Assembly (NCBI RefSeq): GCF_000513995.1
Contig: NZ_AZVB01000011.1
Span: 138-64,137, forward strand
Reading direction: 5' to 3'
DNA: 64,000 bases
From: Pseudoxanthomonas sp. J35
Lineage (GTDB): Bacteria > Pseudomonadota > Gammaproteobacteria > Xanthomonadales > Xanthomonadaceae
A model generated the notes under the pieces. The model was not told the DNA's origin. It did no database searches and saw only the letters and a program-made list of their open reading frames with translations. The stretch's first letter is position 1; the number at the start of each line of letters is the position of its first letter. Both the position numbers and the translations under genes were made by a program. Of this stretch, positions 13,928-51,509 are shown piece after piece.

Positions 13928-14883
<956 letters not shown>

Positions 14884-43368: not shown

Positions 43369-43383
43369 TAGAATCCACGCATG
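43369..43383 (+). promoter_or_regulatory. -10-like TAGAAT exactly 6 nt before an ATG
   Basis: TAGAATCCACGCATG is identical, base for base, to 47830-47844 upstream of nnr. With the start 7 bases after the hexamer the mRNA would begin at the A of ATG. No -35 is clear. Confidence 0.5.
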
Positions 43384-43989
43384 TCCACGATTCCCGAAAT
43401 CCGTCGCCTGCGCGGTGCCGAGATCGCGCCCTGGCTGGACGACGTCGCCCGCCTGCGCATCGAGGTGTTCCGCGAATGGCCCTACCTCTACGACGGCGAC
43501 GACGCCTACGAGCGCGAGTACCTGACCGCCTACCTCGAATCGCCCGGCAGCGTGCTGGTGCTGGCGCTGGATGGCGACCGCGTTGTCGGCGCTTCTACCG
43601 GGCTGCCCCTGGCCGACGACCAGGAAGCGTTCCGCAAGCCGTTCGAGCAGGCCGGCCTGCCGGTGCGCGAGGTGTTCTACTTCGGCGAATCGGTGCTGCT
43701 GCCGGCGTACCGCGGCCGCGGCGTCGGCCACGCCTTCTTCGACCAGCGCGAGGCGCATGCGCGCGAACTGGGCGGCTTCCGCTGGACCGCGTTCTGCGCG
43801 GTGGACCGCGCGCCTGACGATCCGCGCCGGCCACCCGGCTACCGGCCCAACGACACGTTCTGGCACGGCCGCGGCTACGCGCGCCTGCCGGGGATGACCT
43901 GCATGCTGCCGTGGAAGGAGCCGGGCGACCACGAGGAAACCCTGCATCCGCTGACCTTCTGGCTGCGCGACTGGGCGGCTGCGCCATGA
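43381..43989 (+). CDS. GNAT family N-acetyltransferase
   Basis: The 202-residue product has the GNAT fold with the acetyl-CoA loop in LLPAYRGRGVGHAFFDQREAHA (about 102-123; Q/RxxGxG/A pattern RGRGVG) and a preceding beta strand EVFYFGESV. The substrate is unknown. It overlaps the next gene by 4 bases; a GNAT and a nitrilase-type amidase fused in one chain are known from other bacteria, so the two products probably act together. Confidence 0.88.
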   Translation: MSTIPEIRRLRGAEIAPWLDDVARLRIEVFREWPYLYDGDDAYEREYLTAYLESPGSVLVLALDGDRVVGASTGLPLADDQEAFRKPFEQAGLPVREVFYFGESVLLPAYRGRGVGHAFFDQREAHARELGGFRWTAFCAVDRAPDDPRRPPGYRPNDTFWHGRGYARLPGMTCMLPWKEPGDHEETLHPLTFWLRDWAAAP

Positions 43990-46692: not shown

Positions 46693-47772
46693 TCAAGCCC
46701 CGTGATGCCGTTCCAGCGCCCACGCCACGTGTTCCCGCACCAGCTCCGACGGATGCTCCCGGCGCGATTCCAGCGCGGCGATCACTTCGGGCTTGGACGG
46801 TGCGTTGCCCAGCGCCACGGCGATGTTGCGCAGCCAGCGTTCGTGGCCGCTGCGGCGGATCGGGCTGCCTTCGGTGCGGCGCAGGAACTCGTCTTCCTCC
46901 CAGGCGAACAGCTGCGGCAGGGTGGCCACGTCCAGGTCGTTGCGCGCGCGGAAATCCGGCTCGTCGGTGCGGCGGGCGAACTTGTTCCAGGGACAGACCA
47001 GCTGGCAGTCGTCGCAGCCGAAGATGCGGTTGCCGATCGCCGGGCGCAGTTCCTCGGGGATCGGGCCTTCGTGCTCGATGGTGAGGTAGGAAATGCAGCG
47101 CCGCGCGTCGAGCCGGTACGGCGCGACGATCGCACCGGTGGGGCAGACCTCGATGCAGCGCGTGCAGGTGCCGCAGTGCGCGCTGGCCGCCGCGTCGACC
47201 GGTAGCGGCAGGTCGACGTAGATCTCGCCGAGGAAGAACCAGGAGCCGCCGTCCTTGTCGATCAGGCAGGTGTGCTTGCCGATCCAGCCCAGGCCGGCGT
47301 TGCGTGCCAGCGCGCGCTCGAGCACCGGCGCCGAGTCGACGAACACGCGGTGGCCGAACGGACCGATCTCGGCCTGGATCCGGTCGGCCAGCTTCTGCAG
47401 GCGGTTGCGCATCAGCTTGTGGTAATCGCGGCCAAGCGCGTAGCGCGCGACATAGGCGCGGGTCCCGTCGGCGAGGGTCTGCCAGGCCTCGTCGCCGTCG
47501 TTGCGGCCATAGTCCAGGCCGACCGAGATGACCCGCAGCGTGCCGGGCACCAGCTCCTGCGGGCGGCTGCGGCGGTCGCCGTGGCGGGCCATCCATTCCA
47601 TGGTCCCGTACAGGCCCTGCTGCAGCCAGTCGCGCAGGTAGGCCTCGTCCTCGCCCAGTTCCACGCCGGAAATGCCGCAACGCTGGAAGCCGAGCTCGCG
47701 CGCCAGCTCGCGCACGCGGCGGGCGACGGCCAGCGGGTCGGCGTGGGCGGCAGGGGCGGCGGGCAGGAACAT
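46693..47772 (-). CDS. queG: Epoxyqueuosine reductase QueG
   Basis: Catalyses the last step of queuosine synthesis in tRNA, using cobalamin and two [4Fe-4S] clusters. The 359-residue product has [20 protein letters not shown], the cluster motifs [13 protein letters not shown] and [13 protein letters not shown], and a C-terminal HEAT-like part. On the minus strand TATAAT lies exactly 6 bases before the ATG (47784-47779), so the mRNA may be leaderless. It is divergent from nnr over 69 bases. Confidence 0.96.
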
Positions 47773-47841
47773 GCGCGGATTATAGGGAGCGGCCGCTACA
47801 CGCCCGCGAAACGGCGCCCTGGGCGGCGGTAGAATCCACGC
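47773..47841. promoter_or_regulatory. Divergent promoter region with two leaderless-type starts (queG and nnr)
   Basis: On the minus strand TATAAT-CCGCGC-ATG opens queG. On the plus strand TAGAAT-CCACGC-ATG opens nnr. In both the spacing from the -10 end to the ATG is 6 bases, and no Shine-Dalgarno is possible in between. Confidence 0.6.
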
Positions 47842-49323
47842 ATGGCCTTCCTCCATTCCGCCGCCGCCGCGCGCGAGATCGACCGCCTCGCCACGGCCGC
47901 GCTCGGCGGCGACGGCTACCGGCTGATGCAGCGTGCCGGCCAGGCCGCCTGGCGCGTGCTGCTGCAGCGCTGGCCGCGCGCGCAGCGCATCGTGGTCGCC
48001 TGCGGCAGCGGCAACAACGGTGGCGACGGTTACGTGCTGGCGCGGCTGGCGCTGCAGTCCGGCCGCCAGGTGCGGGTGGTGCATCCGCCCGGGGGTGGTC
48101 CGCGCAGTGGACTGGCGCAGCGCGCCTGCACCGATTATCTCGCCGCCGGTGGCCACGTCGAGCTGTTCCCGTCGCCGCTGGACGATGCGGACGTGCTGGT
48201 CGATGCGCTGTTCGGCATCGGCCTCGAACGCGCGCCAAAGCCCGAGTACGCCGCGCTGGTCGAAGCGCTGGACCAGGCGGAGGCGCCGCTGTTCGCGCTG
48301 GACGTGCCCAGCGGCATCGACGCCGATCGCGGCTGCGCGCCGGGCGTGGCGCTGCACGCCGGATGCACCTTGCAGTTCATCGTCGAACACGTGGGCCTGC
48401 GAACCGGCATCGCCCTGGACCATGTCGGCGAGCTGCTGCTCGACACGCTGGATGTGGACGCCGCGGAATACGCGGAGACTGCGCCGGCGAGCGCCACGCT
48501 GCTGCGCGCCGACGCATTGCGCCAATGGCTGCTGCCGCGGCGCCGCGATACGCACAAGGGCGAATCCGGACGCGTGCTGTGCATCGGCGGCGAACTGGGC
48601 GGTGGCGGCGCGGTGCTGCTGTGCGCGGAAGCCGCGTTGCGCGCCGGCGCGGGCCTGGCGATCATTGCCACGCGCGAAGCGCACGTGGCGGCGATCCTCG
48701 CGCGGCGCCCGGAAGTGATGGTGCGCGCGGTGCATGACGCCGGCGGGCTCTCGCCGCTGCTCGCGAACGCAGGCGTGGTCGCCTGCGGCCCGGGCCTGGG
48801 CCAGCAGGCCTGGGGCGAATCGCTGTTCCGCGCCGCGCTTGCCAGCAACAGGCCGCTGGTCCTCGATGCCGACGCGCTCAACCTGCTGGCCGCATCCGGC
48901 CTGCGCCCACCGGCCGACGCGATCCTGACGCCCCATCCGGGCGAAGCCGCGCGCCTGCTCGATACCGACATCGCCGGCATCCAGCGCGATCGCTTCGCCG
49001 CCGCCGCGGCGCTTGCAGCGCGCTACGGCTGCACCGTGGTGCTGAAAGGCGCCGGCACGATCATCGCCTCGCCCGGCCGGATTCCCGCCGTGCTCGACGC
49101 CGGCAATCCCGGCATGGCCACCGGTGGCATGGGCGACCTGCTCACCGGTACGATCGCGGCGGCGCGTGCGCAGGGCCTGTCTGCGTTCGAAGCGGCCTGT
49201 GCCGGCGCGCTGCTGCATTCGCTGGCCGGAGACGCGGCCGCCAGCGAAGGCGGGCAGCGCGGCCTGCTGCCTTCGGACCTGCTGCCATGGCTGCGCCGCC
49301 TGTCCAATCCCGAGGAAGCCTGA
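47842..49323 (+). CDS. nnr: Bifunctional NAD(P)H-hydrate epimerase / ADP-dependent dehydratase
   Basis: Repairs hydrated NADH and NADPH. The 493-residue product joins an N-terminal YjeF_N epimerase domain (VACGSGNNGGDGYVLAR at about 52-68; DALFGIGLERAP) to a C-terminal ribokinase-like dehydratase (KGESGRVLCIGGELGGGGA, LTPHPGEAARLL, NPGMATGGMGDLLTG). tsaE overlaps its stop as TGATG, an arrangement found in many proteobacteria. Confidence 0.95.
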   Translation: MAFLHSAAAAREIDRLATAALGGDGYRLMQRAGQAAWRVLLQRWPRAQRIVVACGSGNNGGDGYVLARLALQSGRQVRVVHPPGGGPRSGLAQRACTDYLAAGGHVELFPSPLDDADVLVDALFGIGLERAPKPEYAALVEALDQAEAPLFALDVPSGIDADRGCAPGVALHAGCTLQFIVEHVGLRTGIALDHVGELLLDTLDVDAAEYAETAPASATLLRADALRQWLLPRRRDTHKGESGRVLCIGGELGGGGAVLLCAEAALRAGAGLAIIATREAHVAAILARRPEVMVRAVHDAGGLSPLLANAGVVACGPGLGQQAWGESLFRAALASNRPLVLDADALNLLAASGLRPPADAILTPHPGEAARLLDTDIAGIQRDRFAAAAALAARYGCTVVLKGAGTIIASPGRIPAVLDAGNPGMATGGMGDLLTGTIAAARAQGLSAFEAACAGALLHSLAGDAAASEGGQRGLLPSDLLPWLRRLSNPEEA

Positions 49324-49845: not shown

Positions 49846-49874
49846 TTGCAATCCCCGGGCCGCGGTGCTTGAAT
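49846..49874 (+). promoter_or_regulatory. Promoter of amiC with TTGCAA-17-TTGAAT, leaderless type
   Basis: TTGCAA (49846-49851) and TTGAAT (49869-49874) are 17 bases apart, and the ATG begins 6 bases after the -10. The region before it is AT-rich (gattattaaggaaaaaag), which would suit an UP element. Confidence 0.6.
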
Positions 49875-49880
49875 CGCGCC

Positions 49881-51509
49881 ATGCGCCAGCGGATTGCCCG
49901 GACAGGATGCCTCGGGGTGGGCTTGATGCTCGCCGCCCTCGCGTTCGTCGCGCCGGCCTGGGCCGGCCAGGTCCGCTCGTTGCAGCTCGAGCAGGGCGCC
50001 ACCGGCACCCGCGCCGAGATCGACCTGCAGGGCGCCGGCAAGTACAAGACCCTCTCGCTGACCGGACCGCACCGCCTGGTGGTGGACCTGCCCGATTCGC
50101 AGGCCGCGCGCGGGCTGAAGCTGCCGGCCCCGGCGGGAGTAGTCACCGCGGTCCGCACCGGCCAGCCGGTGCCGGGCACCTTCCGCATCGTTTTCGAACT
50201 GGCCCAGCCGGTGGCGGCGCTGCCCGCCCGGATGGAGCCGGCGGCCGACGGTGCGCGCCTGCTGATCGAATGGCCGGGCGATGGCCCGGCGCCGGCGACT
50301 GCCGCGGCGACCAGGTCGCCGGCCCCCGCAACCGTCGTCACCGCTCCCGTGCCGACCCAGGCGCCGGCCGTCGACCCGGAAGAGGCCGCGCGCGCCACCG
50401 CGCTGCTGGCGGGCCAGGCTGCGCAGGCGGCCCGGATGCAGGCAACGCCGCCGAACCCGCCGGCCGCCATCCCGGCGGCGACCGTCCCGGCCAGCGCGAC
50501 CGCGACCACCACGGCCGCCAACGCCGGGCCGTCGCCGCGCGAAATCCTCGAAGGCCGCGCCAACGCCCCGGTCGTGGCCGAAGCAGGCCCGCCGGGGAGC
50601 ATCCCGACGGCTGCCAACCCGGCAGCCACCGCCCCGCCGCCGGCGGCCGGCCCCTCGTCCGCCGTCGCCACCGGCCCGTCGGCCGAGACCACGCCGGCGC
50701 CCGCGGCCACCACCGCCCCGGCACCGGCCAAGCCGGCCGCACTGGGCAAGGGCATGCGCCCGCTGATCGTGGCCATCGACGCCGGACATGGCGGCCAGGA
50801 CCCGGGCGCGATCGGCCCGACCGGCAAGCGCGAGAAGGACGTCACCCTGGCCATGGCCCGCGAACTGGCCCGCCAGGTCAACGCCACGCCCGGCCTGAAG
50901 GCCTTCCTGGTCCGCGATTCGGACGTGTTCATCCCGCTGCCGATGCGCGCCCAGCGCGCGCGCCAGGCCAAGGCCGACATCTTCGTCTCGCTGCATGCCG
51001 ACGCGGCCGAGAACCGCAGCGCGCGCGGCTCGTCGGTGTACGTGCTGTCGACCAAGGGCGCCTCGTCGCAGCGCGCGCGCTGGCTGGCGGACAAGGAGAA
51101 CGCGGCCGACCTGGTCGGCGGCGTGCGCCTGCAGCAGACCGAGAACGTGCTGGCCAGCGTGCTGCTGGACCTGGCCCAGAGCGGGCACATGCGCGCCTCC
51201 GAGGACGCGGCCAACCACGTGCTCGGTGGCCTCAAGCGCGTCGGCAACAACCACAAGCCGAACATCGAGCGCGCCAACTTCGCCGTGCTGCGCACCTCCG
51301 ACATGCCGGCGATGCTGGTGGAGACGGCCTTCATCTCCAATCCGGAGGAGGAGAAGCGCCTGGTCGACCCGGCCTACCAGCGCAAGGTCGCCAGCGCGGT
51401 GGTCGACGGGCTCAACACCTATTTCAGCCGCCAGCCGCCGCCGGGCACGCTGTTCGCCGCGCGCGCCGAAGCGGCGACGGTGGCGATGGCCGGGGGCGGC
51501 ACGCCCTGA
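49881..51509 (+). CDS. amiC: N-acetylmuramoyl-L-alanine amidase (AmiC/AmiB type)
   Basis: Splits septal peptidoglycan during cell separation. The 542-residue product has a signal peptide (cleavage near AWA, about residue 28), an AMIN domain (about 29-130) for septal targeting, an Ala/Pro/Thr-rich linker of about 160 residues (130-290), and an Amidase_3 domain with the zinc ligands in IDAGHGGQDPGA, KREKDVTL and VSLHADAA and the catalytic glutamate in MLVETAFISN. A TTG at 49869 is in frame but coincides with the -10, so the ATG at 49881 is preferred. Confidence 0.95.
   Translation: MRQRIARTGCLGVGLMLAALAFVAPAWAGQVRSLQLEQGATGTRAEIDLQGAGKYKTLSLTGPHRLVVDLPDSQAARGLKLPAPAGVVTAVRTGQPVPGTFRIVFELAQPVAALPARMEPAADGARLLIEWPGDGPAPATAAATRSPAPATVVTAPVPTQAPAVDPEEAARATALLAGQAAQAARMQATPPNPPAAIPAATVPASATATTTAANAGPSPREILEGRANAPVVAEAGPPGSIPTAANPAATAPPPAAGPSSAVATGPSAETTPAPAATTAPAPAKPAALGKGMRPLIVAIDAGHGGQDPGAIGPTGKREKDVTLAMARELARQVNATPGLKAFLVRDSDVFIPLPMRAQRARQAKADIFVSLHADAAENRSARGSSVYVLSTKGASSQRARWLADKENAADLVGGVRLQQTENVLASVLLDLAQSGHMRASEDAANHVLGGLKRVGNNHKPNIERANFAVLRTSDMPAMLVETAFISNPEEEKRLVDPAYQRKVASAVVDGLNTYFSRQPPPGTLFAARAEAATVAMAGGGTP

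Follow-up and report, generated by a model that had tools for sequence, protein, structure and literature searches.

Predicted leaderless starts of queG and nnr and a candidate bidirectional promoter with one shared -10 element in Xanthomonadaceae

The divergently transcribed genes queG and nnr of Pseudoxanthomonas sp. J35 each carry a -10-like hexamer exactly 6 nt before the start codon, and in the majority of the relatives examined the two hexamers are merged into one short pseudo-palindrome. We hold it to be very probable that such hexamers are -10 elements of housekeeping-sigma (sigma-70 type) promoters giving rise to leaderless mRNAs, and that the ancestral queG-nnr promoter was bidirectional, with a single 10-bp pseudo-palindrome serving both genes. 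The first transcribed base would be the A of the start codon, leaving a leader of 0 to about 2 nt, and the ribosome would initiate directly on the leaderless mRNA. The stretch analysed, hereafter the window, comprises 64,000 nucleotides with a GC content of 0.71 and belongs to a draft genome of 3.24 Mb in 33 contigs. Its relevant features are as follows:

43369..43374, plus strand: TAGAAT, -10 hexamer of the GNAT gene, 6 nt before its ATG
43381..43989, plus strand: gene for a GNAT-family acetyltransferase of 202 aa (Pfam Acetyltransf_1), predicted to be leaderless
46693..47772, minus strand: queG, epoxyqueuosine reductase of 359 aa (Pfam QueG_DUF1730 + Fer4_16), ATG at 47772-47770, predicted to be leaderless
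47779..47784, minus strand: TATAAT, -10 hexamer of queG, read in the sequence 6 nt before its ATG
47785..47829, no strand: 45-bp spacer between the two -10 boxes, absent in relatives with the compact form, where the boxes share 2 bp
47830..47835, plus strand: TAGAAT, -10 hexamer of nnr, 6 nt before its ATG
47842..49323, plus strand: nnr, NAD(P)HX epimerase/dehydratase of 493 aa (Pfam YjeF_N + Carb_kinase), predicted to be leaderless
49866..49874, plus strand: TGC TTGAAT, element of the extended -10 type before amiC, 6 nt before its ATG
49881..51509, plus strand: amiC, N-acetylmuramoyl-L-alanine amidase of 542 aa (Pfam AMIN + Amidase_3), predicted to be leaderless or nearly so

An earlier note on this DNA had placed TATAAT and TAGAAT exactly 6 bases before the ATGs of queG and nnr, and the letters bear this out on both strands: for queG, TATAAT at 47784-47779 is followed by the spacer CCGCGC and the ATG at 47772-47770, and for nnr, TAGAAT at 47830-47835 is followed by CCACGC and the ATG from 47842. 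The same note had drawn attention to the 15-mer of nnr (47830-47844) being repeated before the GNAT gene. The copy at 43369-43383 on the plus strand is indeed exact; a special meaning of the repeat was rejected, and we regard it as incidental, since four GC-rich spacers each occur twice among the 33 TAGAAT/TACAAT sites with a 6-nt spacer (N6) of this genome and the nnr spacer letters differ among relatives. As for amiC, counted in the note as a further start of this kind, the spacing holds (TTGAAT at 49869-49874, spacer CGCGCC, ATG at 49881) and the box is conserved, TTGAAT or TTCAAT being present at N6-8 in 16 of 20 relatives (at N8 in 9 of these 16); the hexamer itself departs from TANAAT and has TGC directly 5' of it, as in extended -10 elements.

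In the window, TANAAT-N6-ATG is found three times; 100 shuffles yielded 0.05 on average (sd 0.22), and never as many as three. In the whole genome, it is found 35 times, as compared with no match for the reversed-pattern control. When spacers of 0-30 nt are searched for TAGAAT or TACAAT before ATG in this genome, 33 sites fall at N6, 11 at N7, 3 at N8, and 4 at N9, over a background averaging 1.4 per spacing at N10-18. The sharp N6-7 peak is the signature of -10 boxes whose transcripts would start at the ATG. Counts climb again, over a wider span, at N27-30 (26 sites, 30 being the upper end of the search), consistent with promoters whose leaders measure about 21-24 nt. In the family, 25 genomes were searched, and each showed 17-39 matches to the strict pattern against 0-2 for controls; in a survey of 369 genomes of the class, compiled as raw counts, many displayed an excess over the reversed control, also beyond Xanthomonadaceae.

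The sites are nevertheless few. A 464-kb set made up of the window and a 400-kb sample outside it held three strict matches, all inside the window; about four would be expected in the outside sample from 35 per genome, and as it held none, the strict sites must be unevenly spread and the window unusually rich in them. The relaxed hexamer TANNNT at N6 gave a weak excess in the same 464 kb (15 against a mean of 9), and GTG and TTG starts preceded by TANAAT showed no N6 peak there (0 for GTG and 1 for TTG). It could be argued from the scarcely enriched relaxed motif and the empty 400 kb that AT-rich hexamers merely happen to precede some start codons in a GC-rich genome. Given the counts in the window and the genome and the conservation across genera, we assign this explanation a negligible probability, and at the level of the strict motif chance is already refuted. 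The small relaxed-motif excess and the empty outside sample do imply a minority device, which in its strict form would cover about 35-50 genes. Hence, the suggestion of the earlier note that leaderless mRNAs are a regular device in this genome is upheld by the genome-wide and family-wide searches, and needs the restriction that only a small minority of genes appear to use it.

Genes with strict sites include recN, uvrD, polA, lpxH, lpxL, queF, ispG, hflD, nfuA, and that for thymidine kinase, as named by the first-listed NCBIfam models, which do not all exceed curated cut-offs, and with some of the open reading frames (ORFs) cut by the end of the locus. Two of the 35 sites were left out throughout, and a third with an ORF of 26 aa (L022) was excluded from the comparisons that follow. 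Of 30 site proteins scanned, 6 had no NCBIfam match at 1e-10; in 17 of the 24 that matched, the alignment to the first-listed profile starts no later than residue 10 and profile position 10, in support of the assigned start codons. Another genome of the family from a different genus (G017) has 36 sites, 30 of which were used; three ORFs shorter than 30 aa were omitted from the protein comparison, in which 9 of 32 site proteins, nnr included, match one of 27 from G017.

For the letters upstream, we pooled the 32 sites with 25 from G017 (five sites with ORFs below 100 aa being omitted) and compared these 57 predicted leaderless sites with 38 leadered TANAAT sites of the J35 genome. Shine-Dalgarno (SD)-like cores precede the ATG in 2/57 of the former and 7/38 of the latter; the leaderless class is in this way distinguished by a -10-like hexamer at the start-point spacing, with its N6-7 peak and conservation, together with a dearth of SD cores before the start codon. 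The TG of an extended -10 was found in none of the 57 and in 4 of the 38. TTG at -35, sought with spacers of 15-20, was absent from all 57 leaderless sites and present in only 2 of the 38 leadered ones; the missing -35 was accordingly rejected as a trait special to leaderless sites, and because the leadered sites are nearly as poor in it, it neither helps nor hurts the reading as promoters. The leaders of those 38 sites often contain pyrimidine-rich runs resembling CTTTCC, as judged by eye.

The relatives were taken as the best 80 named queG loci of a longer list obtained by scanning named genomes with QueG; in-frame ATG or GTG codons within 18 codons of the homology-predicted start were tested, with hexamers sought at spacings of 0-30. 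As the loci share ancestry, the counts are not independent. Among these best 80, 74 loci with an N-terminal match could be scored for nnr, 71 of which have TANNNT at N6-7; queG has it at this spacing in 59 of 79 loci (at N5-9 in 69 of 79), and no spacing outside 6-9 accounts for more than three loci for either gene. In 40 loci hand-picked from 145 genomes with a match to span eleven other families of the order, the box stands at N6-7 of nnr in 22/36 and of queG in 13/40. Hence, the N6-7 box at nnr seems to be of long standing in the order, even if some families have lost it or never had it. In Escherichia coli K-12, the order and divergence of the two genes are the same, the annotated starts overlap by 2 bp, and the 40 nt before nnr contain no TANNNT; queG there (L161) has TATGGT at N5, not counted as the same spacing, and TATACT at N31.

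In 54 of the best 80 loci, both -10 boxes lie within a single 10-bp pseudo-palindrome, ATT[CT]TATACT, which reads TATACT for queG on one strand and TAGAAT or TAAAAT for nnr on the other, the two boxes overlapping by the central TA (2 bp). By record title, the carriers of this compact form include Xanthomonas, Stenotrophomonas, Lysobacter, Luteimonas, Arenimonas, and Alkalisalibacterium, along with three Pseudoxanthomonas records (L085, L100, and L138). A Stenotrophomonas-like queG-nnr locus is also present in a record titled Bacillus subtilis SK7B5 (L127), probably through contamination or mislabelling. The nnr ATG follows the compact element at N6 in 31 loci, N7 in 22, and N8 in 1, that is, at N6-7 in 53/54 and at N6-8 in all 54. 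On the queG side, in-frame starts are found at N6 (12 ATG and 9 GTG), N7 (14 ATG and 2 GTG), and N8 (1), as well as farther off at N9 (10 GTG) and N10 (1 ATG), the last two implying about 3-4 nt of leader; in all, 37/54 loci have the start at N6-7, with GTG in 11/54, and 49/54 at N6-10. The remaining five (L094-L096, L099, and L151) have no in-frame queG start at N5-10. Both starts are present in 49 compact loci, where the start codons, measured from first base to first base, are separated by 23-28 bp (23-25 bp in 38 and 26-28 bp in 11); in these 11, the start point may be nearer the box than the start codon is.

These farther starts bear on a rival explanation, namely, that the hexamers are promoters whose transcripts begin a few bases before or inside the ATG, and that another start codon is used in translation, so that the mRNAs are short-leadered or internally initiated. 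It draws on the GTG at N9 in 10 of the 54 compact queG loci and the single ATG at N10, on the clustering of amiC relatives at N8 noted above, and on the split of an Amidase_2 gene, described below, among N6, N7, and N8 (11, 11, and 7 of the best 30 loci). The dominance of spacings 6-7 in many unrelated genes and the first-listed family profiles, which begin no later than residue 10 in 17 of 24 proteins, weigh against it, and we deem it improbable in comparison with leaderless initiation.

Some of the aberrant queG loci are of interest in their own right. The N9 GTG is found in L086, L088, L089, L107, L120, L122-L125, and L137, and in some of these loci an in-frame ATC occupies N6, which would fit the loss of an ATG there and a shift of the start to the next codon. 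The Stenotrophomonas loci L094-L096 and L099 contain extra sequence between TATACT and the queG ATG, placing the queG start 72 bp from that of nnr, which keeps N6; these amount to a natural experiment. In Stenotrophomonas mori (L151), queG matches from residue 79 only and its frame is not that of the ATG at N6, so that the queG start seems to have been lost or altered.

In the window and five other Pseudoxanthomonas loci (L081-L084 and L087), the boxes are split: the gap between the start codons ranges over 36-116 bp, the queG box is TATAAT instead of TATACT, and N6 is maintained on both sides. In the window copy, the predicted starts are 70 bp apart; among the named matches listed, its queG comes closest to the one of Pseudoxanthomonas suwonensis J47 (97% identity). 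Since the spacing holds even when the boxes are apart, the distance from box to start appears to be what selection keeps, and this is our best argument. We infer that the compact form is ancestral and was split later. A 10-bp palindrome between the boxes of the window, AGCGGCCGCT, was entertained as an operator and dropped; within the 24 nt upstream of each gene that were compared, it recurs in the nearest relative (L081) but not in L082-L084 or L087.

With the compact form, written as AGTATAGAAT on the nnr strand and ATTCTATACT on the queG strand, TAGAAT would serve nnr and TATACT would serve queG, and RNA polymerase would bind the shared element in either orientation to produce one of the two leaderless mRNAs. 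Where the boxes lie apart, as in the window and closely related Pseudoxanthomonas, each retains its 6-nt spacing; the boxes of the window do not overlap, and hence no single element would be used there in both directions. QueG functions in the synthesis of tRNA queuosine, and Nnr in the repair of NAD(P)HX. As a guess, the arrangement might keep the expression of these two maintenance enzymes low and unregulated.

Leaderless mRNAs and bidirectional promoters have usually been studied apart. For the former, Zheng et al. 2011 (PMC3160421) predict leaderless genes in Xanthomonadales, preceded at about 10 bp by a TA-like signal, and a table there puts the average share of leaderless genes at 4.5% across the 15 gamma genomes (of 239) in which they occur. 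The signal and spacing are the same as those found here; queG/nnr, divergent pairs, and shared -10 boxes do not figure in the passages considered. For the latter, Warman et al. 2021, as related in the main texts of PMC12825309 and PMC10268837, described bidirectional promoters, defined as having starts 7-25 bp apart, in which one symmetric -10 element is shared; the commonest distance is 18 bp, with 10 and 23 bp also common (PMC12825309). The compact queG-nnr loci likewise place two -10s on opposite strands of one short sequence, and by sequence they fall under this definition of overlapping -10s and starts 7-25 bp apart. Their start codons, at the distances given above, are near the 23-bp class, two N6 spacings around a 10-bp element giving exactly 23 bp. 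The window copy, in contrast, with its starts 70 bp and its boxes 45 bp apart, falls outside it. The compact loci would differ from the promoters of that kind in that both transcripts would be leaderless, so that the symmetry would also set both start codons; the word "leaderless" is absent from the main text of either paper. In Deinococcus-Thermus, according to the relevant parts of PMC12340547, -10 regions adjacent to ORFs yield leaderless mRNA and promoters function without a -35. TANNNT stands a few bp before the ORF in both cases; that system belongs to another phylum and concerns about 30% of ORFs as opposed to a few percent at most here, and those parts mention no divergent pairs.

Leaderless Xanthomonadales genes, as predictions (PMC3160421), and bidirectional promoters (PMC12825309 and PMC10268837) are thus the known parts of the system. 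Among the titles and abstract openings listed, with few subscription journals covered, we found no paper joining leaderless and bidirectional transcription for a bacterial gene pair. We therefore read two predicted leaderless mRNAs from a bidirectional promoter as a new combination of two known devices. If this is true, hardly any smaller regulatory region could serve two genes: among the best 80, the compact loci in which both starts are present have 22-27 bp between the start codons. Its parts could be examined in natural variants, such as compact and split boxes, ATG and GTG starts, spacings of 6 and 9, and the Stenotrophomonas loci with a leader on one side only; further, the start-codon evidence is usable for gene re-annotation in Xanthomonadales.

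A search of 79 genomes of the family with CAT-N6/7-ANNNTANNNT-N6/7-ATG pointed to further candidates, the mixed N6/N7 arrangement giving 40 matches against 7 for controls, N6/N6 38 against 9, and N7/N7 19 against 3. Besides queG-nnr, the most repeated element among the matches listed was ATGCTAGCAT, present in 22 of the 79 genomes between an Amidase_2 gene and a divergent gene that either encodes a MOSC domain or has no Pfam match at 1e-5. We regard these loci (L182/L261, L162-L173, and L262-L290) as a second candidate for a bidirectional, doubly leaderless promoter. The J35 genome itself carries ATGCTAGCAT on contig C14 near position 14,750 (L182/L261), with spacings of N8 and N7, and the MOSC frame opens at the ATG so placed. 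When 30 amidase loci, the best 30 of 58 genomes with a match, were fetched by protein similarity rather than by motif, TAGCAT stood at N6-8 before the Amidase_2 ATG in 29, the full palindrome was present in 19, and ATG or GTG occurred at N5-9 on both sides in 12. Two of these 12 (L283 and L289) have short divergent ORFs, of 10 and 39 codons, when read from such a start.

Dimeric regulators often bind palindromes, and ATGCTAGCAT is a perfect one. Its high recurrence beside the Amidase_2 gene, with TAGCAT in nearly all of the best 30 loci and the whole palindrome in almost two-thirds, might hence be taken to indicate that this element and AGTATAGAAT are operators of transcription factors, with their closeness to the ATG being secondary. 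Such elements, however, vary between loci, with TANNNT alone in common; a distance of 6-8 nt to the start codon on both sides is a rule of promoters and not of operators; and in the split Pseudoxanthomonas loci, the window included, the boxes are separate with each spacing kept. We consider the operator explanation quite unlikely, with only chance rated lower. Returning to the hexamers as -10 elements, we favor, with some reserve, the proposal that one pseudo-palindrome constitutes the complete intergenic signal for two leaderless genes, expressed in exclusive events, and that this arrangement originated separately at the Amidase_2/MOSC locus. There would be no leader, no SD sequence, and no room outside the genes for a separate -35 or operator; QueG and Nnr would be made from mutually exclusive events at one site; and the arrangement would have been kept across many Xanthomonadaceae, with the symmetry of the promoter fixing both start codons.

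Divergent pairs with non-overlapping boxes, counted where TANNNT lies at N5-9 of a partner ORF of at least 90 aa, were found in 3 of 30 site loci of the J35 genome (L011, L021, and L026); the same count in G017 gave 2 of 30 loci, L070 and L080, the latter being the compact queG-nnr locus. lpxL is paired with a 448-aa ORF across a gap of 57 bp in J35 (L026) and with a 438-aa ORF across 66 bp in G017 (L070), in each case with separate boxes at N6, and a gamma-carbonic-anhydrase-like gene is paired with a 490-aa ORF across 41 bp, also with separate boxes at N6 (L021). In one genome (G491), TAGAATTGGGTTATG is present in at least six copies and is probably a repeat or insertion sequence. Finally, two genomes that belong to one genus (G020, contig C42, and G208, contig C73) have the conserved palindrome ACCCTAGGGT flanked by CAT and ATG; the G020 copy, the one examined for ORFs, has a 542-codon ORF downstream.
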